A stretch of 21,642 nucleotides of DNA from a virus: the IMG/VR virus record IMGVR_UViG_3300033141_002353, positions 1-21,642 of that record. One strand, 5' to 3'. The notes beneath the pieces are model-generated. The model worked only from the letters and a program-made list of their open reading frames with translations, made no database searches and was not told the origin of the DNA. Of this stretch, positions 4,056-21,642 are shown one piece after another (position 1 is the first letter of the stretch; each line of letters opens with the position of its first letter). The position numbers and the translations under genes are program-made.

Positions 4056-6341
4056 TTAAAAATCATCAATCCGGCTCTCAGCATAGATTTCCACATAAGT
4101 CAATGATTTCTGTATCTTCATTATCTCCCAACGTTCTGTTGTACCTTCGACAGTCGCAGGAAACCATCCATGCGCTATCGTAATCGTATCGTTTATTTCA
4201 AGCGGAAATCCGAACTCCGGATACGTTCTAAACTTACAAGTATAATTACGTAATGTATAATAATCAGCCAATGCTTTGCAAAGCAATTCAGCCGTTGCAT
4301 CATCATTGATCCATTTCGCTTTTATTCGCAATGATTCAGTCGTAGCGTAATTCGTTTGTGAATTATAGCATTGACTTTGATACCCTGTACCCCCCGCAGC
4401 AAAATTATGATCCGATGCTGTCACGAATTTTAGTTTTTCACATTTCTTTGTCGCCGGATTGTATCCGTATTCGACATAGAATTCATTGCGTATTTTAGAA
4501 AGTGGTGTCCGTCCCTGAGATACATTCCACATTTTACCAGTCGTGAAATGCTGCTGAATCGTATCGGTTAGTGAAGGACGTCCTTGTAACGTTTCCGAAC
4601 CATCCGCTCGTTTAAAATTCCGTGCCATACAAGATTTGCATAACATATCGATCAATTCAGCGCTATCGGTATCATCAATAACTTGACCGGCAAATTTCCA
4701 ATCTTTAAGTGTGCCGTTCGTAGTATTGCCGAGTACGTCAAATTCAGCCCAGTCAATATCAGCGGTCGTAAGTCCGAGCTCATCACGGAAAATAGATTCA
4801 ATTACATACGGCGGGCTATCGATTAAATTCGTTGCATTCTTTCCGTTATCACGCGCGCCTTCATCAATCCAAGCTGCAAACTCAAGTCCTGCCATGTCGG
4901 CATAAAATTGTTTTTTTGGTATATGCAAAAAATCAATAGTAAAATCCATACGCAACATAATTTCATACAATCGCAAATCCGGCATATAAGATCCGCCACC
5001 ACCATCACCGGCACTTGTCATTTGTATTCCAAGTAATCCACGCCGCATTTTTTCAAATGTATCATAAGCTTCGATACCCGGAGTCGCTACCATATCATGA
5101 GTCGTTTCAACTTCCGAACCGGGAGTCATATTGTCGAATTCTGCTACTGGAGTTCCTGATAAATCTGCCGCTAAATTTTCAGTATTGGTTGCGGCATATC
5201 CTTCAGCGTTATTACCAATCATACTTACTAATGCACCACCAGGTAAAGCTTCAGGTGTTTCCCCATCTTTTTCTCGCAATCCTAATTTAGTTATAAGATA
5301 TAATCCGAATAATTCACCTTTAAATCCATCAAATTGTTCAAGTCGATATAATAAATTACCTTGATCTATTTCATCATTCGGCACACCGGTAATCCTGCCG
5401 AAAGTATCTAAATCAGTATCAATAGTATTTTTTTCATCATCAACAAAATTTAAATCATCGTGATCATAAGGGCATAAATTAGGTATCGCATGATAAATCA
5501 AATATAATTCACCTTCAACACATTTGTTGTTTTCAGTATCATTGAAAGTAGCCGCATCATTATCAGTATCAATATCATATTCGGTATCTGCTGAATCAGC
5601 ATTCGTTTCTTCAAATACCCGAATAAACCGTTCTCCCATCCATATATACATATTGGTAAATGCATTATTTACGATATTACCTGCCTCATTTGTTGGAGCG
5701 GAAAAACGTACTATTTGTTCAGGATATACTTGTTTTGTCAAATATCCAAGAGCTTTGGCATTTTCTGAAAATGTACCATAGGTAATCGGATATCCTTTGC
5801 CTATATGTTCATCAGGAACGATATTATTATCAACAGTACCGCTATTATCACTTTTTTTAATTCTCGTTAATGGTAATGTTTTATGTATCTTAAAACTTGA
5901 ATCTTTAATATTAAATGTCAATGTTTCGTTATTCCAGCTATAATCTTCGACAACTCCGGTAAACACCGTCACGAAATTATCCAGCAGAAAATCATTGCCA
6001 TAGTTATCTTTGGCAAATCCGAATTTTATAATAACTGCTGCATTTTCAGCATAGCTTAAACTGGATTGTATCGCATTGCTTTTTTTATCAGCATTAAGAA
6101 TCGTTACTTCAACATCCGATACGATAGCCCGCCCGAATCCTTCAGATGGGAATTCCATTGTCAATACAGGATCATTTTTAATGATAGGATCGTAGTCATC
6201 ATATCCTGCGCCCGCACCAGCTAAAAGTCTCCGAGTCGAAAAATACCAATCCGTATTACCTGCAATCTCTACAAGTAGAATCGGATCAGTGCCCGGTTGC
6301 TCTATTCGGTCATCGAATGATGTGTTAGTCGTTATTGCCAT
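4056..6341 (-). CDS. Tail hub / central tail-tip protein
   Basis: A 761-residue protein. The N-terminal 150 residues (SFDDRIEQPGTDPILLVEI, FGRAIVSDVEVTILNADKK, VTVFTGVVEDYSWNNETLTFNIKDSS) form a beta-rich domain of the kind seen at the start of tail hub proteins. The middle (about 290-520) is variable and acidic. The last 130 residues (FYVEYGYNPATKKCEKLKFV, YYTLRNYTCKFRTYPEFGFPLEINDTITIAHGW, WEIMKIQKSL) match the C-terminal half-barrel of gp27/Tal-like hubs, which close the tube and hold fibres. The start abuts the upstream stop (TAA|ATG). It is the largest tail gene here after the portal fusion, as expected for this role. No peptidase motif seen. Confidence 0.65.
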   Translation of the reverse strand: MAITTNTSFDDRIEQPGTDPILLVEIAGNTDWYFSTRRLLAGAGAGYDDYDPIIKNDPVLTMEFPSEGFGRAIVSDVEVTILNADKKSNAIQSSLSYAENAAVIIKFGFAKDNYGNDFLLDNFVTVFTGVVEDYSWNNETLTFNIKDSSFKIHKTLPLTRIKKSDNSGTVDNNIVPDEHIGKGYPITYGTFSENAKALGYLTKQVYPEQIVRFSAPTNEAGNIVNNAFTNMYIWMGERFIRVFEETNADSADTEYDIDTDNDAATFNDTENNKCVEGELYLIYHAIPNLCPYDHDDLNFVDDEKNTIDTDLDTFGRITGVPNDEIDQGNLLYRLEQFDGFKGELFGLYLITKLGLREKDGETPEALPGGALVSMIGNNAEGYAATNTENLAADLSGTPVAEFDNMTPGSEVETTHDMVATPGIEAYDTFEKMRRGLLGIQMTSAGDGGGGSYMPDLRLYEIMLRMDFTIDFLHIPKKQFYADMAGLEFAAWIDEGARDNGKNATNLIDSPPYVIESIFRDELGLTTADIDWAEFDVLGNTTNGTLKDWKFAGQVIDDTDSAELIDMLCKSCMARNFKRADGSETLQGRPSLTDTIQQHFTTGKMWNVSQGRTPLSKIRNEFYVEYGYNPATKKCEKLKFVTASDHNFAAGGTGYQSQCYNSQTNYATTESLRIKAKWINDDATAELLCKALADYYTLRNYTCKFRTYPEFGFPLEINDTITIAHGWFPATVEGTTERWEIMKIQKSLTYVEIYAESRIDDF

Positions 6342-7205
6342 TTATGTCGCTTCTATTAATTCAGTCATTTTCATTGTAACTGCATATTTATTATTTTTTA
6401 ATCGCTGAACCCCAAAGCCATCAAGATATACGTTCCAAATTTCACCGCTCTTGACAACTTCTATCTGAAATGGATTCAATCCGAAATCAATTAACTGTTC
6501 AACGAAATCTTTAAGTAAATCATAATCAGACCAGTCTAAATGTGAGAATTTCATATCAATCGAATCACGTGGAATGCCGAGCTTCGCTGTTTGTCGGTAT
6601 CCTGAGACCGCCTCGATACTTGTAATATTAGTGACCGGCGATATTTTCAACGGCAAACTCGGTGCATTAGAGTCAATCGTGACCGTCTGCTCAGTGATTC
6701 CGAAACAATTATCAACGTATATTGTAGCTGCTCCTGCTGCCGTATGGTCGAATTTTATTACATCAATGTCACTTTTATCGCCATCAGCGACTGCTGATAT
6801 ATCAATCAAATGTTGAACCCAGGTATTAACTTCTTCGGCTTCGGTTTTAAGTATCCTATCCGCAACTATTGCCCCGCCCGTGCCATCAATAAAAGATACT
6901 GTCCAATCGCTATTGGCAGCAGTTGAATATGTCCATAATACGATAACATTTTTCCCGCTTAAACTGATATTTAAATCAACCGTTTTAACTTCCTCTGTTC
7001 CATCATCTGAAGCATCGGCAAGAATCTTCATTGAATATGTTCCCTGCTTAACGATAGTCGATTCACTATAAACCTCAAGTTTCGTTCCATCAGTCGTTAT
7101 GAATACCGCCTGTGCCGCATCATAATTCGCATATTCAAAATAATCCAGTTCAGTTTTAATCGCTGAATTTTGGTCTCGTGGGTATCTGAATTTTACGAAG
7201 TCCAT
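6342..7205 (-). CDS. Tail-tip protein with inserted carbohydrate-binding-like domain
   Basis: A 287-residue protein. Residues 1-35 and about 180-287 form a likely tail scaffold domain (KISPVTNITSIEAVSGYRQ, IDMKFSHLDWSDYDLLKDFVEQLIDFG, and an ending NNKYAVTMKMTELIEA). Residues of about 40-175 look like a jelly-roll carbohydrate-binding module: ESTIVKQGTYSMKILAD, NVIVLWTYSTAANSDW, WVQHLIDISAV and AATIYVDNCFG. Located between tape measure and hub, it corresponds to the distal tail or minor tail position in siphoviruses. The family of the scaffold part is not recognised with confidence. Confidence 0.6.
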   Translation of the reverse strand: MDFVKFRYPRDQNSAIKTELDYFEYANYDAAQAVFITTDGTKLEVYSESTIVKQGTYSMKILADASDDGTEEVKTVDLNISLSGKNVIVLWTYSTAANSDWTVSFIDGTGGAIVADRILKTEAEEVNTWVQHLIDISAVADGDKSDIDVIKFDHTAAGAATIYVDNCFGITEQTVTIDSNAPSLPLKISPVTNITSIEAVSGYRQTAKLGIPRDSIDMKFSHLDWSDYDLLKDFVEQLIDFGLNPFQIEVVKSGEIWNVYLDGFGVQRLKNNKYAVTMKMTELIEAT

Positions 7206-13030: not shown

Positions 13031-13981
13031 TTATGTCAAATGTGTATCGGTAAATAAATAACCGGCATTCACCGATGTCTGTTCGACTGCATAACTTTCC
13101 GATATGCGAAGTACATCGGATTTTTCGTCGATCAATCTCCAGCGATCGATTGTTCTTGGTTTGCTCTGGATAATGTACCCAGCAGCCGGATCCATTAATG
13201 TCGGAGACGAAGGTGCATAGAATAAAAATCCTATGCCTTTAGTTGCCGTTTTATCCCAAACGTCAAGAGCAGTGAAATCATCACCGGCAGCGGTTTCTTC
13301 GGCGCTGGAATAAATTGCACCGCCCACGAGAACTTCGTCAAGCTCAAATATCGCCGCAAGCGCTTGAGCCGTTACAATAGCAGGTGATCCGGGTCCACCA
13401 CTGTATTTTATTCTTTGCAGAATATCATCGACATTTTTCAAATCTTCAAATGTCTTTGAATCGATCAGGAGTTTATTCGGGTATCTGCCGATAGCTCTGC
13501 GGATTGTTGATTTTCCGGTCGCAATATCAGCTATAACAGTATTCGTTGATCCTGCCGGCGCCCATAATCCTCCAGCATCTTCTGTCGCAGTCCAGGCAGT
13601 AACGATTGCCGCAACTTTTCTTTCTTTACTTAACATTGCAGCATTTGTCAAAAATTCAGTTGCTACGGTATCCGGTCGCAACGGCGCATCGGCATTATTA
13701 CGCTCTTCATCGGTAACTAACTTTTTAAGCGCCATTTCAACGCAATTGTATGTACCGGTACCCATTCCATAACCGCTCTCGGCAGATTTAGCACCGGGAC
13801 CGCGAGTTTTCATATCATCACGAAACCAGGGTCCGCGATCGAATGTGAAATATTTGTCGGAATCCTTTGTGACGGGCACAGTCGGAAATACTCTATCCGC
13901 AACCCAAAACGCATTTTTGTATGCGATAGAGACATTCGTCATTGCAATGTCAATATGGATTTCCGCTTTAGTTGGTTGCAT
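13031..13981 (-). CDS. Major capsid protein
   Basis: A 316-residue protein that forms the head shell, probably with the HK97 fold. The N-terminus NVSIAYKNAFWVADRVFPTVPVTKDSDKY matches the usual opening of this capsid family, in which a loop and Phe-Pro motif precede the E-loop. Further family-like features are KKLVTDEERNNAD in the first third, and ALAAIFELDEVLVGGAIYSS and GFLFYAPSSPTLMDPAAGYI in the last third. It has a strong GGAGGT SD and follows the protease, scaffold and decoration genes, the standard position. No N-terminal propeptide is obvious, which fits the separate scaffold. Confidence 0.87.
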   Translation of the reverse strand: MQPTKAEIHIDIAMTNVSIAYKNAFWVADRVFPTVPVTKDSDKYFTFDRGPWFRDDMKTRGPGAKSAESGYGMGTGTYNCVEMALKKLVTDEERNNADAPLRPDTVATEFLTNAAMLSKERKVAAIVTAWTATEDAGGLWAPAGSTNTVIADIATGKSTIRRAIGRYPNKLLIDSKTFEDLKNVDDILQRIKYSGGPGSPAIVTAQALAAIFELDEVLVGGAIYSSAEETAAGDDFTALDVWDKTATKGIGFLFYAPSSPTLMDPAAGYIIQSKPRTIDRWRLIDEKSDVLRISESYAVEQTSVNAGYLFTDTHLT

Positions 13982-14867: not shown

Positions 14868-15494
14868 TTATTTGTTTCGCGATTCGGCAAGTACCTGCTC
14901 TGCAAGTTCCGGATTCTGTTTTTGTGCCATCAAAAAAGCTTCCGAATAACTCAATCCTTCGGTTTCTTTCATTATCGCAATCGTTTTATCATTTAATTGT
15001 GTAGTTGCATTTGCATCCGGTGTCTCTGTATCAGCAATGCGCTTAAAATTTACTATAACAGCTGCATTTTTTTCAAATTCTAGGAAGCTTTTTTGATCAT
15101 TCAGCGCAAGTTTTAACGCCCAGTCTTTCTGTGCCGAGAGTATTTTACCCGATTTCTGAAGTGCCTCGACCTGGATTTTGGCTTTTTCTTCCGCACGTTC
15201 CGCTTCAATCGCTTTAAGCCGGGCGTTTTGGGCGTCAAATGATTTTTCAAGCTCTTTAAATGTGCTGACCGGTACGAATTTGTCAGGGTCAGGTTCTTTC
15301 GTTTCTTGCGTTAATTTCTTAATGCCTTCAAGGATCGCCGTCGTATCTGAATCTTCTGACAGTTTCAATTCTTTGAATATGCCTGTCAAATCAGGTTTAT
15401 CCGGGTTAGTTACAAGTTCCTCAATCGCAGTGATAACAGCAGCTTCATCTGCATCATCACTTAAATGAAGAATTTCACGAATTTTGGTAATCAT
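14868..15494 (-). CDS. Nested scaffold protein (Mu gpZ-like) from internal start
   Basis: In-frame internal start within the protease gene: ATG at 15494 preceded by GGAGGTAATA, one of the best SDs in the window. It gives a 208-residue protein beginning MITKIREILHLSDDADEAA, acidic and helical, with a long charged coiled coil in the middle (FKELEKSF ... AIEAERAEEKAKIQVEALQ). In phage Mu and relatives, the scaffold (Z) is made from an internal start in the protease gene (I) in exactly this way. Internal scaffold is degraded or expelled during head maturation. The SD is seen directly and the role is inferred from family knowledge. Confidence 0.65.
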   Translation of the reverse strand: MITKIREILHLSDDADEAAVITAIEELVTNPDKPDLTGIFKELKLSEDSDTTAILEGIKKLTQETKEPDPDKFVPVSTFKELEKSFDAQNARLKAIEAERAEEKAKIQVEALQKSGKILSAQKDWALKLALNDQKSFLEFEKNAAVIVNFKRIADTETPDANATTQLNDKTIAIMKETEGLSYSEAFLMAQKQNPELAEQVLAESRNK

Positions 15495-16295
15495 TATTAC
15501 CTCCGTATTTGGTTTTTTGTTTAGGTTATTAGCTATTTGAAAAAATAATGGCATGTTGTCTGCGGAATCTTTGGCAGCGATCGCCGTCATGTTATCGAAC
15601 CAGGGTACGTTAGTAAGCGCAACCGAATGCAACCGCACACCGGTAGGTTTACCGGATTTCTTTTCAGTCGATTCACGCATTATCGTAGGCGATATATACC
15701 GATATTCACGTTTTTTAATATGTTCTTCAGCATCCGGTGTCCAATTTACTTTCGCCCAAATACCACGTCCCGGATTCCGAGTCTTAATGTACATTTCGGT
15801 AATCCAACCAGCAGCCAAAGCTAATTCGCCGACTCCGGTAGATTGATGTTCATAGTCGATAACGAGATCTTTTTTCTCTTTATTGAAATTACTAATAATC
15901 TCATTGAGAATATCTTCTGTTAAATCCATTTCACCATAGAATTCATGAGTGTAAATTCCATACGGTACGATATGAATTTCAGAAGGGATTTTCGCTTCGT
16001 CTGCGAAAGTTATTTCAGATAAACCATAAACTTTCATTGTATGCTCCTTTGTAGATTTTTTGGCAGCTTCAAATGTTCCATCGTGTTCAGTACAAAATTT
16101 CCGGGCCTGGCTTTCTGTCCATTCGTCTTTAGACATTCGATATGATTGCGTTGTCGTTGTCGTTTTTCCCTTTAATCTACCGATGATAATATTCAAAGTT
16201 TTCCCATCGGATTTTTTTGATATACGCCGAAACGAATCTTTTTGAAATTCGCCAGGTTCACGAATGCGACATGCATGCTCCTGAGGATAGGGAAT
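14868..16295 (-). CDS. Mu I-like head maturation protease with C-terminal scaffold
   Basis: The open frame extends up to a TTG at 16343, but that start and the ATG at 16337 lie inside the terminator hairpin. GGAGG at 16302-16306 stands six bases before ATT at 16295, giving (M)PYPQEHACRIREPGEF, which looks like the normal N-terminus of this family. I therefore place the start at the rare codon ATT. Residues 1 to about 85 form a small domain (HACR ... QSYRMSKDEWT) that I recall in front of phage proteases. From residue 87 comes the Mu gpI-like protease, with VIDYEHQS, ISPTIMRE and LHSVALTNVPWF, which probably carry the catalytic His and Ser. Residues from 268 are acidic and coiled-coil rich, as expected of a scaffold. 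Strong SDs before internal ATGs at 16037 and 15494 suggest separate products. Confidence 0.85.
   Translation of the reverse strand: MPYPQEHACRIREPGEFQKDSFRRISKKSDGKTLNIIIGRLKGKTTTTTQSYRMSKDEWTESQARKFCTEHDGTFEAAKKSTKEHTMKVYGLSEITFADEAKIPSEIHIVPYGIYTHEFYGEMDLTEDILNEIISNFNKEKKDLVIDYEHQSTGVGELALAAGWITEMYIKTRNPGRGIWAKVNWTPDAEEHIKKREYRYISPTIMRESTEKKSGKPTGVRLHSVALTNVPWFDNMTAIAAKDSADNMPLFFQIANNLNKKPNTEVIMITKIREILHLSDDADEAAVITAIEELVTNPDKPDLTGIFKELKLSEDSDTTAILEGIKKLTQETKEPDPDKFVPVSTFKELEKSFDAQNARLKAIEAERAEEKAKIQVEALQKSGKILSAQKDWALKLALNDQKSFLEFEKNAAVIVNFKRIADTETPDANATTQLNDKTIAIMKETEGLSYSEAFLMAQKQNPELAEQVLAESRNK
16035..16050 (-). promoter_or_regulatory. Internal SD and ATG inside the protease gene
   Basis: AAAGGAGC stands about six bases before an in-frame ATG at 16037, which begins MKVYGLSEITFADEAK, the natural N-terminus of a Mu I-type protease domain. 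This could give a protease lacking the HACR-containing N-terminal domain, or be a remnant of a gene fusion. Confidence 0.55.
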
Positions 16296-16321
16296 AATAA
16301 ACCTCCGGTCATTTTTAAAAT

Positions 16322-16360
16322 AAAAAAAGCCGAGCATTCTCAATTAAGAGATTGCCCGGC
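16322..16360 (-). terminator. Rho-independent terminator-like hairpin before the protease gene
   Basis: Reading the minus strand, GCCGGGCA pairs with TGCTCGGC (one G-U pair), then after an A-A mismatch TCTC pairs with GAGA around a TTAATT loop. Seven T residues follow directly. This is a textbook intrinsic terminator, and it lies in the only sizeable non-coding gap. It is not palindromic for the plus strand because there is no T-run on the other side. It could also be an attenuator or the 3' end of a short RNA starting after the upstream gene. Confidence 0.75.
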
Positions 16361-16412
16361 CCGGCTGTTCCGATACCAGCGATTCTATGTTCTGGGTTTC
16401 TTTATTTTTTCG

Positions 16413-16789: not shown

Positions 16790-16935
16790 TTAATCGTCTC
16801 CCGTTTCTCGATATGCGTTAATTTGCCATGTTGGAAAGTCAATATATACTTTCCGTACCATATCTTACCATCTAAACTAACGATTTTTTCTTTACAAAGC
16901 AACCGGATTTTTGAAAGTAACATTTCGGGAGTCAT
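16786..16935 (-). CDS. Small basic unknown protein (49 aa)
   Basis: A 49-residue ORF (MTPEMLLSKIRLLCKEK ... HIEKRETIK) filling the space between its neighbours. Its ATG abuts the upstream TAA, and its TGA overlaps the next ATG (ATGA). The central GKIWYGKYILTF looks like two short strands. It shares its first codons with the preceding gene through a 16-base repeat. Gapless coupling on both sides is the main evidence that it is translated. No family recognised. Confidence 0.5.
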   Translation of the reverse strand: MTPEMLLSKIRLLCKEKIVSLDGKIWYGKYILTFQHGKLTHIEKRETIK

Positions 16936-17171
16936 TTATCGTCTCGTTCGCAAAAATGTATCGAAATTTATAGGATGCTCAAAATCATTTCTATCTATTT
17001 TTGTATTATTTCCACTATACCAATCAAGAAATTTTCTTGCAATATCCCTTGATGGATCATTACTTGAATCTATTACTTTTTCTATGCCATGTGATTCACG
17101 GCTCAAATCAATTATTTCTATATAAAATGATTCCAGCATATCTAATATAGAATTTATTTCGGGAGTCATTT
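16922..17171. repeat. 16-bp direct repeat over two start codons
   Basis: ATTTCGGGAGTCATTT (plus strand) occurs at 17156-17171 and at 16922-16937. The period is 234 bases, exactly 78 codons, the length of the 77-residue gene plus its stop. Each copy spans an ATG and the first codons MTPE of a gene, so the repeats bracket the 77-residue gene. Confidence 0.85.
16936..17169 (-). CDS. Small acidic unknown protein
   Basis: A 77-residue acidic protein, mostly helical in its first half (INSILDMLESFYIEIIDLS), ending with basic RTRR. Its ATG overlaps the upstream stop by four bases, and its TAA directly abuts the next ATG at 16935. A 16-base direct repeat covers its start codon and the start codon of the following gene, so both begin MTPE. 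No family recognised. Its small size, acidity and position after the MuF fusion make it one candidate for an immunity or accessory protein, without direct support. Confidence 0.6.
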   Translation of the reverse strand: MTPEINSILDMLESFYIEIIDLSRESHGIEKVIDSSNDPSRDIARKFLDWYSGNNTKIDRNDFEHPINFDTFLRTRR

Positions 17172-17391: not shown

Positions 17392-19887
17392 TCAATTCCC
17401 CGCTTTTATCGGCACACCTATCCGAGCTTTCGCTGGATTCACTATTTCTTTTATTTCTTTTATCACACCGCCTTCGACTTTTGCGACTACGTAATAAATC
17501 TCACCCGTCGCCGAATCGCTGAATTTCTTGATATATCGGAATAACGGACTGCCGCTTTTCATTACGCCCCAAATTTCATCCGGACTTTGCAGGATAACAT
17601 CTGTCTCTGATAGCAATTGCTTGGTTTTCGTGATGTTATACGATTTGACGGATTTCCAATATGGTAAAGTATATGATGCCGCCATCCCGCTCCATGCCGC
17701 TTTTGTGTTAATCAGATTCTCGTATTTATGTCCTATCCTTGCCGGGCTTTCACGAAACGCTTTATCGGGTAATACCTGTCGCCGTGAATTCGGATCGATA
17801 GGTACAGATGATCCCCTTTCAATACCTTGCGTTTCCGCTTCGTGTGCCGTAATAACTTCAACGTCACATCGGCAACGAAATCCATTAGGTGGATACCATT
17901 TCTGCCAAATCGGATCATTAGCTGGTGCGATAAATCCGTTCATAGCTGCATGATTCGGGCGTACAAGACCGTCATCCATTGTTACATAGCGCCAAAACGG
18001 GAACGCTTCAACCATTTCTGGCGATGATAATTCCGCGAATTTACCAGCTTGATAACAATTTATATTGTTCTGTAAATATACGGTCTCTAAATGAAACGGA
18101 TTAAGCGGTGAATATCCTGATTTTTCAAAGAACTCGTTTATGTTATCCATGAATGCCGAATAAACTGCGCCGGTTTCGGCTTGTATTATTAACTCTTTTT
18201 TTATTTTATCGAGTATCGCTTTAAACTCCACATGTGCAACTGCAAAACTATTGATCTTTAAAAAGTCAATCATTGATTCGGGCGATTGATGAAAGCCGAA
18301 ATCGAACGGTGGTTGTTTAAATTTAAGTTCTTTTGATTCTTCGTTGACGGCATATTTACCGAAGGATTCGAGCATTGAAATTCCGATTGGCTCAGCCAAT
18401 GCTCGCACATCTCTTTGGTCAAAATGGTAATTGGTAATTGCGTTTTTCGCACGTTCATAACCTCTGGCTTTTTCAAGCGTTTCCTTAATTTCCTCAAACC
18501 AAAGAGAAACGATATTACTCGACGAATCATTTGCTGCCACTTCCGTAATTTCATCAATAACTGCTTTACATTTCAAGACATCAGATATTTTATTTTCTGA
18601 TTTAAACTTTTTTTTTATACCTGTATTCTCTGAATATTCAGGAAATCCGCCATCATAATCAGTTCCGACTTCAAGCAATTCTTCATCGTCTTTCGGTATG
18701 GGTATATTATATTTTTCATATAGATAATTTTGTGCTACTGGCAATCCCAACCCTTTAAATATCTTAATATCTTTGTCGGCTTCTTTGTAAGTATCCGGTT
18801 TCGTTTCATAATCGAACATAAATGCAGGAATTGGAATGCCTTCTCCATAGTTAAACCGCACCAATGGCGCTATTAATTGCATCTTTAAATCTTCTGCCAG
18901 TAACAAAGCATCGGAAACCAGCAAATCACCTCGTACCCTGTCATGAGTTTTAGAAGCTGCATAGCTGCCTTTATCACCGATTTCAGTTGTCAATGTTTGA
19001 CCAAGTACAGCAATACTCATTTTTTTATCTGCATACTCTTGGAATGATTTGTATATGTCGGTATTAGTAGATTTGCGTTCAATGAGTTCAATTATAGCGG
19101 AATCGGGCACGATAGCCGATGCATCTGTACCAAGCAATTCTATAGCATCCTTCAAAACATTTAAATCCTCATCGCTTATTCCCTGTGGATATTTACCGAG
19201 CCGCGTAGGCATACCGAATACTTCTGAAAATATACTCCAATCTTTTAGTGAAAACGATTTCAGCATATAGAAGAATGCACATAACCGCAACAATCCGCCC
19301 CGATTTGTGAGTCCTGATTTACTGTGCGGTACGTGTACAATGAATTTATTCGGCTCTAATTCTTCGCCGGTCGTTGTATTCGCAGCTGTCATTAATCGTG
19401 GTTCAAATGAATTGGCAAACGTGAATTTCCGCTGCCGAATACGTTCGATATTTTCTATACCTATTTTATTACCTTCTTGTTTCCAAATGATTTCAGATAC
19501 TGAAAAACCGTATCCGATAGCCGTTAGCAAATCTAATAATATATTCCTAAATTTAGGAATCGCTTTGAGTTCTGTTTTAACGAAATCGGCAATATCAACG
19601 TCTCGTTTATCTTCCGTGACAGGAATAATATTCCAACTTAATCCACTGACAGCCAATTGTCGTGTTTGTAACACCGACGCTAAATGCAGATCTTTTTCTT
19701 CCATCTCCATGAATAAATCATATAGTTGCTGCACGTATCCCTGATTTGCCATGCGGAGAATAGTGACTAATCGTTCGGGTTTAAGTGTGCCGATAACTAA
19801 AGAGATGCGTTCGGATATGCTTTGCTGTACGATACGCTTGGTAATAGGGGTTTCTTTTTGCTTGAATATTCTAAGTGGATTCAGCAT
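17392..19887 (-). CDS. Portal (Mu gp29-like, DUF935) fused to MuF head protein and a possible BECR-type nuclease
   Basis: An 831-residue protein. Residues 1 to about 430 resemble the Mu gp29 (DUF935) portal family: an N-terminal segment with LHLASVLQTRQLAVSGLSW, then GYGFSVSEIIW, HVPHSKSG and GMPTRLGKYP. This part forms the DNA channel at the head vertex. Residues of about 560-690 match the Mu gpF/SPP1 gp7 domain, with the hallmark DPIWQKWYPPNGFRCRC near 657-674. In Mu these are two genes (29 and 30). The last 140 residues contain LSETDVILQSPDEIWGVM and FRYIKKF followed by a strand-rich stretch. This resembles the PBECR (barnase/EndoU/ColicinE5-D/RelE-like) nuclease domains known to be attached to MuF proteins. 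That last call is by pattern only, and no catalytic histidine is obvious. The portal and MuF calls are firm. The stop is followed one base later by the next ATG. Confidence 0.88.
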   Translation of the reverse strand: MLNPLRIFKQKETPITKRIVQQSISERISLVIGTLKPERLVTILRMANQGYVQQLYDLFMEMEEKDLHLASVLQTRQLAVSGLSWNIIPVTEDKRDVDIADFVKTELKAIPKFRNILLDLLTAIGYGFSVSEIIWKQEGNKIGIENIERIRQRKFTFANSFEPRLMTAANTTTGEELEPNKFIVHVPHSKSGLTNRGGLLRLCAFFYMLKSFSLKDWSIFSEVFGMPTRLGKYPQGISDEDLNVLKDAIELLGTDASAIVPDSAIIELIERKSTNTDIYKSFQEYADKKMSIAVLGQTLTTEIGDKGSYAASKTHDRVRGDLLVSDALLLAEDLKMQLIAPLVRFNYGEGIPIPAFMFDYETKPDTYKEADKDIKIFKGLGLPVAQNYLYEKYNIPIPKDDEELLEVGTDYDGGFPEYSENTGIKKKFKSENKISDVLKCKAVIDEITEVAANDSSSNIVSLWFEEIKETLEKARGYERAKNAITNYHFDQRDVRALAEPIGISMLESFGKYAVNEESKELKFKQPPFDFGFHQSPESMIDFLKINSFAVAHVEFKAILDKIKKELIIQAETGAVYSAFMDNINEFFEKSGYSPLNPFHLETVYLQNNINCYQAGKFAELSSPEMVEAFPFWRYVTMDDGLVRPNHAAMNGFIAPANDPIWQKWYPPNGFRCRCDVEVITAHEAETQGIERGSSVPIDPNSRRQVLPDKAFRESPARIGHKYENLINTKAAWSGMAASYTLPYWKSVKSYNITKTKQLLSETDVILQSPDEIWGVMKSGSPLFRYIKKFSDSATGEIYYVVAKVEGGVIKEIKEIVNPAKARIGVPIKAGN

Positions 19888-20062
19888 TTTTGTATTTCAT
19901 ATTATGTATTGGAATATTTCTAATTTTTCTATCCGTATAATGACAACGACAGCAATACCAATGTTGTTCAATTGTAGATTCATCATAAAAATAACTCTCT
20001 AATTGAAAAGTTAAATATTTACATCTTGGACATTCTTTATTTTGAAAATACGGATTCAGCAT
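19871..20062 (-). CDS. Small zinc-ribbon protein
   Basis: A 63-residue protein with two cysteine pairs, C11-x2-C14 (ECPRC) and C37-x2-C40 (YCCRC), separated by 22 residues, which is the usual zinc-ribbon layout. Its ATG abuts the stop of the ORF upstream, and its end overlaps the portal start by 17 bases, so translation is probably coupled. I see no clear SD of its own. A 13-base direct repeat covers both its start codon and the portal start codon, so both proteins begin MLNP. This suggests the gene was inserted as a unit. The role is unknown. Zinc ribbons in phages bind nucleic acid or are structural, and nothing here decides between these. Confidence 0.6.
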   Translation of the reverse strand: MLNPYFQNKECPRCKYLTFQLESYFYDESTIEQHWYCCRCHYTDRKIRNIPIHNMKYKNAEST

Positions 20063-20064
20063 TT
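19877..20064. repeat. 13-bp direct repeat over two start codons
   Basis: GGATTCAGCATTT (plus strand) occurs at 20052-20064 and again at 19877-19889, with a period of 175 bases. Each copy contains the start codon and first four codons (MLNP) of a gene: the zinc-ribbon ORF and the portal. The repeats exactly bracket the zinc-ribbon gene. Confidence 0.8.
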
Positions 20065-20244
20065 ATTTTTTTGCTTTCGGTTTCAATAACAGCTTCATGA
20101 AGTCGGCATGATTCATTTTAAGATGTATATATTGACCATTGATGTATATGTCAACGTATTCTGTTTTGGTAAAACTTTTATCATCCTCTGAATGTATGCC
20201 GGTTATCGTGCCACAATTGTATTTGTCAATCTGATATAGTCCAT
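20063..20244 (-). pseudogene. Small unknown ORF with broken reading frame after terL
   Basis: The ATG at 20244 directly follows the terL stop and has GGGAG eight bases upstream, but its frame stops after 13 codons. The -1 frame from 20242 is open for 59 codons (GLYQIDKYNCGTITG ... KLLLKPKAKK) and ends TAA at 20063, exactly abutting the ATG of the next gene. It has no ATG, GTG or TTG before its C-terminal third. One extra G (ATG GGA CTA) would give a clean 60-residue basic protein starting at the well-placed ATG. I therefore read this as a real small gene with a one-base deletion or a sequencing error. A -1 slip on the A-run near the end of terL is an alternative but is poorly supported. No function recognised. 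Confidence 0.45.
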
Positions 20245-21642
20245 TTAATACACTCCCGCTCTTTCTTTTTTAGCTCGGTAAACTTTGCCACCGATTGCGC
20301 CGAATGTGTAAAATGTGTTTATCAACGAATCGCCTTTGTCTGGACTGCGCCCTAATCGTTGCTTTATTTTTTCCTTCTCCTCTATTTTAATCTTTCCATT
20401 CGATTTAAGTTCCCATTTTATCGAAGTTAATTCTTCAAGTAGTTCATCATCGGGCGGCAAAGCCAACTTACAATCGAATTTCGGGTCAAGTGCATCCCGC
20501 AAAGCCCAGTGTAGATACGCCCGCATATTCAAAAATTTGCGCTCACCGGTTAAATCTGTCAAATCCCGGTCATTATGTTTAGCAGCTTCGGAGAATTTTA
20601 CTGAAATAACACGTACATTAAGCTCTCGCAATCGGGAATAGACACCTGCACCCTCACCTATGGTATCAATATACGCATAATCTTTATTAGTTCGCAACTC
20701 ATTTTTTATAATTCCGGCTGTTTTCATGTGATCCTGCTGTTGATATGATTTAAAATGTTCTATCATATCGCCCCGCCGGAATGCCAAAACAGTCTTATCA
20801 CGTCCCATACCGGCAATATCTACACCGAGTTTAAGCGGCTCATTAACATATCCATCTGTCGCTTTAAACTGAATCCAGCGGTCATTTGCCATTTCGATCC
20901 ATTTGCGCGGGATAAGCACATCCTCTGATTCACGTGGAAACTCACCCATAACACGCATCAAAAACAAATCAGACGGTCGATACCAATTGCCATCGAATTT
21001 GAAGTCGTGCATTTCCTGTGATATATTTTCTTCTGCAATCGGCTCACACCAGGAATCAACGTGCTCGGATACCCATTCATAATCGACTTGACCAGGAATG
21101 AGTATCCGTCTCGCCCGCACATTAGGCGCATTCAAACAATTGAGCTTAAACTTTGTGAAATGCTTGCTGCGAGTGCTTTCGTATGCTGCACCGATTACTC
21201 GAATGGGATTGAATACGATTAGAAGCTTAGAATTACCTGTCAATACACCTTCAATAGCATTAAATGTAATATCTTCGACACCGGTCGCCTCAGTTACAAT
21301 TACCATCATATTCGGGCTGTGGTATCCTGTCCAGCTTTCAGGATCCTTGTCAGCTGCTTTGAACCCCTCAAGAAACCAATCTCGATTATCAGGGAATATG
21401 ATTCGATGTGTTAATACATTTCCGCCAAGCTTGATTCGTGCTTTGGAATGAATTGTTGCGATTTCCGACATATTGATTGAAACGACTTGCCGATCGGTCG
21501 GTGCGGTACATATCACTTTACTCGGATAATACAGATACAGAAAGCATAATGCAGCAACAGCAGCAAGATAGTCCTTACCTCGTGCATGTCCGCTGCGGAC
21601 GGATGTTTTACGATTATTTTGAACACCTCGCAATATACGGCG
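20245..21642 (-). CDS. terL: Phage terminase large subunit, 5' end cut by window edge
   Basis: ATP-driven DNA packaging motor with a nuclease domain. About 465 residues are visible. The frame stays open to the right edge, and the TTG at 21633 is probably not the true start, because a few residues of the ATPase N-terminus are missing. Counting from that TTG, a Walker A-like stretch SGHARGKDY lies at about residues 14-22, and a Walker B-like VIVTEATG at about 111-118 has Thr in place of the usual first acidic residue but keeps the catalytic Glu. The coupling motif LIVFNP is near 138-143. The nuclease domain follows, with probable metal ligands D272 (LGVDIAGMGRDK), D323 (YIDTIGEG) and D432/D435 (RSPDKGDSL). 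The stop codon directly abuts the ATG at 20244. Identification rests on the order and spacing of these motifs and the portal nearby. Confidence 0.93.
   Translation of the reverse strand, partial: RRILRGVQNNRKTSVRSGHARGKDYLAAVAALCFLYLYYPSKVICTAPTDRQVVSINMSEIATIHSKARIKLGGNVLTHRIIFPDNRDWFLEGFKAADKDPESWTGYHSPNMMVIVTEATGVEDITFNAIEGVLTGNSKLLIVFNPIRVIGAAYESTRSKHFTKFKLNCLNAPNVRARRILIPGQVDYEWVSEHVDSWCEPIAEENISQEMHDFKFDGNWYRPSDLFLMRVMGEFPRESEDVLIPRKWIEMANDRWIQFKATDGYVNEPLKLGVDIAGMGRDKTVLAFRRGDMIEHFKSYQQQDHMKTAGIIKNELRTNKDYAYIDTIGEGAGVYSRLRELNVRVISVKFSEAAKHNDRDLTDLTGERKFLNMRAYLHWALRDALDPKFDCKLALPPDDELLEELTSIKWELKSNGKIKIEEKEKIKQRLGRSPDKGDSLINTFYTFGAIGGKVYRAKKERAGVY

Follow-up and report, generated by a model that had tools for sequence, protein, structure and literature searches.

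The portal locus

The window analysed here is a stretch of 21,642 nucleotides, which comprises positions 1-21,642 of the IMG/VR record IMGVR_UViG_3300033141_002353. It carries a Mu-like head module in which a terminase gene lies upstream of one long chain, and genes for a maturation protease, a scaffold-like protein, a major head protein and connector proteins lie downstream. The principal features are as follows.

20245..21642, minus strand: large terminase subunit, upstream, running off the window (phrog_2, E 1.3e-32)
17392..19887, minus strand: P0001, portal-MuF-PBECR2-like fusion protein, 831 aa (ORF and the orthologue L053)
18703..19722, minus strand: Mu-type portal domain, residues 56-395 (Pfam PF06074, 328.5 bits)
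17860..18207, minus strand: MuF domain, residues 561-676, with a PPNGFRCRC motif (Pfam PF04233 and TIGR01641)
17623..17832, minus strand: linker after MuF (residues 686-755), modelled with low confidence and lacking a catalytic His at the PBECR2 place (alignment and model)
17395..17622, minus strand: PBECR2-like core (residues 756-831), modelled as one helix and five strands, with Lys/Glu in place of S/T (profiles, alignment and model)
14868..16343, minus strand: head maturation protease, downstream (phrog_328, E 5e-57)
13031..13981, minus strand: major head protein, downstream (phrog_1005, E 3.9e-69)

A single chain of portal, MuF and tail

The open reading frame at 17392-19887 (minus strand) encodes 831 aa with zero internal stops, and its portal and MuF parts both pass the thresholds of their families. 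The Portal_Mu profile (PF06074) scores 328.5 bits (E 6.8e-98; gathering score 23.9), and among solved portals the portal half matches 8rka (E 6.6e-54) and 9khx (E 9.9e-48) by phmmer. The Phage_Mu_F profile (PF04233) scores 54 bits (E 3.3e-14; gathering score 29.6), and TIGR01641 also detects MuF with 40.4 bits (cut-off 39.65). About 140 residues follow the MuF domain, and a likeness to PBECR2, which has the BECR fold, is found in the last ~75 of them.

The joining of portal, MuF and a nuclease-like tail in one chain is real, as the sequence-only reading of this DNA had proposed. A separate IMG/VR contig recovered in our viral-contig scans, IMGVR_UViG_3300009488_001761 (hereafter L053), encodes a continuous orthologue of 843 aa with the same three parts, which likewise adjoins its terminase gene and is 49% identical to the window chain over residues 18-827. 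Because a different contig has an equivalent unbroken chain, we rejected the explanation that the fusion is an artefact of assembly, frameshift or sequencing. Identity between the two chains is 57% for the portal, 57% for MuF, 40% for the post-MuF linker, 39.5% for the PBECR2-like core and 29% for the portal-MuF linker. The two loci differ in their neighbouring small ORFs and in the response of their tails to the PBECR2 profile. We also considered whether MuF is additionally made from an internal start, and rejected this since a search near the portal-MuF junction (~residue 480) found no start with a ribosome-binding site. A model of the full-length chain (mean pLDDT 67, pTM 0.45) is too uncertain for placing the three domains relative to one another.

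Homology of the C-terminal tail to PBECR2

The proposal that the C-terminus resembles BECR nucleases was originally based on three motifs, all of which are present (SPDEIWG at 768-774, FRYIKKF at 783-789 and YYVV at 798-801). Profile comparisons bear this proposal out as homology to PBECR2, although not at the level that Pfam demands. The PBECR2 profile (PF18810) matches residues 763-805 with 15.1 bits in the whole chain and 18.2 bits in the tail alone, which is below the cut-off of 27.1, whereas a profile comparison of the tail with hhalign gives a score of 40.2 (E 2e-6 as a single comparison) that exceeds every one of the 250 controls, namely 100 shuffles (maximum 20.5) and 150 unrelated C-termini (maximum 17.8). 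The match extends over 73 aligned columns, and the N-terminal helix bearing the His lies outside them. We also gathered MuF-linked PBECR2 tails, for which genomes were used as well as phage records and viral contigs. In a set of 2908 sequences, a profile of such tails scored the window tail at 18.0 bits (E 1.7e-4), compared with 5.5 bits for the best ORF that is not PBECR2. Moreover, an alignment of 40 tails has only four invariant columns (E, W, R and G), each of which is kept in the window, as E771, W773, R822 and G824. As judged from these sequence comparisons, we regard the last ~75 residues as a divergent PBECR2 homologue whose likeness to the family is beyond chance. By itself, the L053 tail reaches an hhalign probability of just 0.4% against the PBECR2 profile and goes unrecognised, and so membership in the family rests on the window copy together with the 41% identity between the two tails.

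In the structural model of the tail, the core (tail residues about 81-150) is mostly predicted with a pLDDT of 82-92 as one helix and five strands, while the part preceding it is not reliably modelled; 65 of the 152 residues fall under a pLDDT of 50, and matches in structure libraries are weak. Fold searches with the tail model returned nothing at E <= 0.001. The top VIA-align row, itself weak (Z 4.0), is the chain of 6cp9 at residues 147-261. This entry is a CDI toxin-immunity complex from Klebsiella, and the toxin in it is a BECR RNase whose active site includes residues 157, 160 and 255 (PMC6851490). This model-based match would fit a BECR reading and is no proof by itself. Solved structures were searched with a profile of the aligned tails, viral contigs were scanned with MuF plus tail and genome contigs with the whole chain, all of which led nowhere, and tblastn of the tail in phages gave chance matches only.

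Loss of the catalytic residues

BECR-fold RNases are taken here to have an N-terminal helix and four or five strands, with a His in the helix and a Ser or Thr in strand 4. The window tail has no His near the catalytic column of the 40-tail alignment, which agrees with the original remark that an obvious catalytic His is missing, and it carries Lys813 and Glu814 at the S/T position. Both residues are kept in 24 of the 40 aligned tails and both are gone in only two, one of which is the window. His is missing in 11 of the 40 rows, and thus its loss alone is not unusual. In L053 the alignment shows no equivalent His, and MAFFT places a Thr in the S/T column. Given that the catalytic His is absent and that Lys/Glu replaces S/T, the tail is unlikely to be a canonical active RNase, and the suggestion that every portal subunit carries an active enzyme finds no support. 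The tail has been kept in both members of this lineage, since its PBECR2-like core is still 39.5% identical between them, as compared with 57% for portal and MuF.

Related chains and their evolution

The sequence-only reading knew of no description of such a portal fusion, and this part of it does not stand. Iyer et al. (2017) name fusions to MuF and portal domains as the simplest PBECR architectures, and for larger proteins that contain PBECR they predict packaging into the virion followed by injection (PMC5512222). Among 280 portal-bearing loci, portal and MuF are fused in 37 chains, counting that of the window, and a clear PBECR2 tail is present in 28 of the 37; the sample is biased, as a fused query had served to fetch 35 of the loci. 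The three-part layout is, by these sequence matches and by that description, not new and is common in other phages.

The closest counterpart in layout is found in Porphyromonas gingivalis phages (BK068095 and relatives, including our locus L008), whose chains likewise run from portal through MuF to PBECR2 and, at 853 aa, are nearly as long as that of the window (831 aa). In L008, Portal_Mu, Phage_Mu_F and PBECR2 are all over their Pfam cut-offs in one polypeptide, and its PBECR2 domain (46.8 bits) has both His and Thr, unlike that of the window. The P. gingivalis-type chains also have roughly 60 residues between MuF and PBECR2 that the window does not have, and their portals belong to a distant clade. 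A portal tree with 119 rows groups the window and L053 into one clade (SH-aLRT 95) and places the P. gingivalis phages elsewhere, in a fused clade of 25 rows; the label ‘fused’ requires three changes. The tree allows either one old shared fusion that was later split or separate fusions.

Other fused chains end differently. In L040 (3989-6601), which belongs to the same fused group, CdiA_C (28.2 bits, over the cut-off) takes the place of PBECR2; L044 (3971-6526) has a weaker CdiA_C match and no PBECR2; L047 (3971-6574) is a fused portal-MuF chain without PBECR2; and in L001 the portal is fused to a divergent MuF-like part with no PBECR2 tail. Because L040, and with a weaker match L044, carry CdiA_C where relatives have PBECR2, C-terminal domains are swapped on the portal chain as they are in polymorphic toxins. 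MuF polymorphic toxins, which are encoded in the packaging modules of phages, likewise combine MuF with a C-terminal domain that varies (PMC5576092), and they differ from the window in that their portal is a separate upstream gene and their toxin domains are recognised, whereas the tail here is degenerate.

Phage Mu has a homologous portal (gp29) and MuF protein (gp30) in the same gene order after the terminase, but, as had been pointed out at the outset, in two genes. Its gp30 offers a second likeness, to the tail, for Iyer et al. describe the C-terminal domain of gp30 as an inactive PBECR domain with a proposed role ‘probably via RNA binding’ (PMC5512222). In our Mu record (L017), however, Pfam assigns the tail of MuF to MuF_C, with a sub-threshold 22.1 bits, and not to PBECR2.

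Only the degenerate yet retained tail and the separate lineage are novel points, and these mildly so. We propose tentatively, and at well under even odds, that in the lineage of the window and L053 a portal-fused PBECR2 nuclease lost catalysis and came to serve a dodecameric portal as a fixed component, either structural or nucleic-acid-binding. The portal-MuF fusion that came before may have been independent of the one in relatives of the P. gingivalis phages.

Proposed function in the phage head

We conclude, with a probability of about 0.65, that a Mu-like tailed phage uses this chain as its portal protein, to whose C-terminus a MuF minor head protein and then a degenerate PBECR2 domain are joined. 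By analogy with known portals, the chain most likely would form a dodecameric portal with MuF and the degenerate tail within the head. The portal of JBD30 is a dodecamer whose crown and wing sit within the capsid (PMC11445458), and by homology the portal part here would assemble in the same manner. With the crown and wing placed there, twelve arms of MuF plus tail are expected to reach into the head if they escape trimming by the prohead protease, and such arms could help in assembly, DNA packaging or ejection. The tail itself would be a folded and possibly nucleic-acid-binding appendage, not a canonical RNase, as Iyer et al. propose for the inactive PBECR of Mu gp30 (PMC5512222). We favour a retained, non-catalytic and perhaps nucleic-acid-binding tail.

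MuF proteins are believed to transport effectors together with the DNA. Each SPP1 capsid contains just one or two copies of the MuF protein gp7 (PMC5576092), and a portal-fused chain should occur twelve times at the DNA gate. Such phages should be convenient for testing the location and ejection of MuF tails because of this expected copy number, and the window copy is a natural ‘inactive’ comparison for P. gingivalis-type chains, which are intact.

Somewhat unlikely, and yet the best of the alternatives, is that the prohead protease cuts the chain and leaves portal and MuF-tail to work apart from each other, as they do in Mu, an arrangement that is compatible with a degenerate tail and incompatible with twelve fixed arms. 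A head maturation protease is encoded downstream of the fused chain, and in JBD30 the scaffolding protein gp33, which by gene order seems to us to be the MuF protein of that phage, is cleaved by the prohead protease (PMC11445458). Against such a cut, the unbroken chain has been maintained in many lineages.

We consider it improbable that the tail works as an RNase effector whose active site is non-canonical and which, in the manner of MuF polymorphic toxins, travels in the head and is delivered together with the DNA. Close relatives of the same layout have intact PBECR2 or CdiA_C tails, and tails are thus swapped in the polymorphic-toxin manner. The Klebsiella toxin that provides the top structural match, weak as that match is, has Lys, Tyr and Thr superposed on the active site of colicin D (PMC6851490), and W744, K745, K748 and Y750 are the same in the window and L053. 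However, the helix region has no His and the S/T position is Lys/Glu, and no immunity-like gene was recognised adjacent to the chain; a 74-aa downstream ORF is without a family match, and the small ORF at this place in L053 is not the same one.

Marginally less probable again is the reading that the tail merely extends the structure, has no kinship with BECR nucleases and bears its PDEIW-like motif by coincidence. This would suit the sub-threshold Pfam score, the unrecognised L053 tail and the fold searches without a significant match. Against it stand an hhalign score about twice that of the best control, the four retained invariant residues, a position after MuF that PBECR2 shares in dozens of other proteins and the strand pattern of the tail model.

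Small ORFs and other elements of the locus

A zinc-ribbon-like ORF of 63 aa (19871-20062, minus strand) lies between the terminase gene and the portal chain of the window. Its start, ATGCTGAATCC, duplicates the start of the portal gene as a direct repeat (19877-19897 and 20052-20072). In L053 the gap from terminase to portal is only 3 bases, and for this reason a small cassette seems to have been inserted between the two genes in the window. L053 has a 54-aa CxxC zinc-ribbon ORF right after its fused chain (6266-6430, plus strand), which resembles Mu Com (PF10122, 14.6 bits, below the cut-off). Farther downstream in the window, a perfect 16-base direct repeat (16922-16937 and 17156-17171) stands at the starts of two adjacent small ORFs (AAATGACTCCCGAAAT, minus strand).

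Rfam and tRNA scans of the window gave no matches. Just before the protease gene, at about 16310-16365 (minus strand), a GC-rich hairpin-like stretch is followed by a T run, which was not listed by the terminator scan, and L053 has a similar hairpin-like element at the equivalent place.
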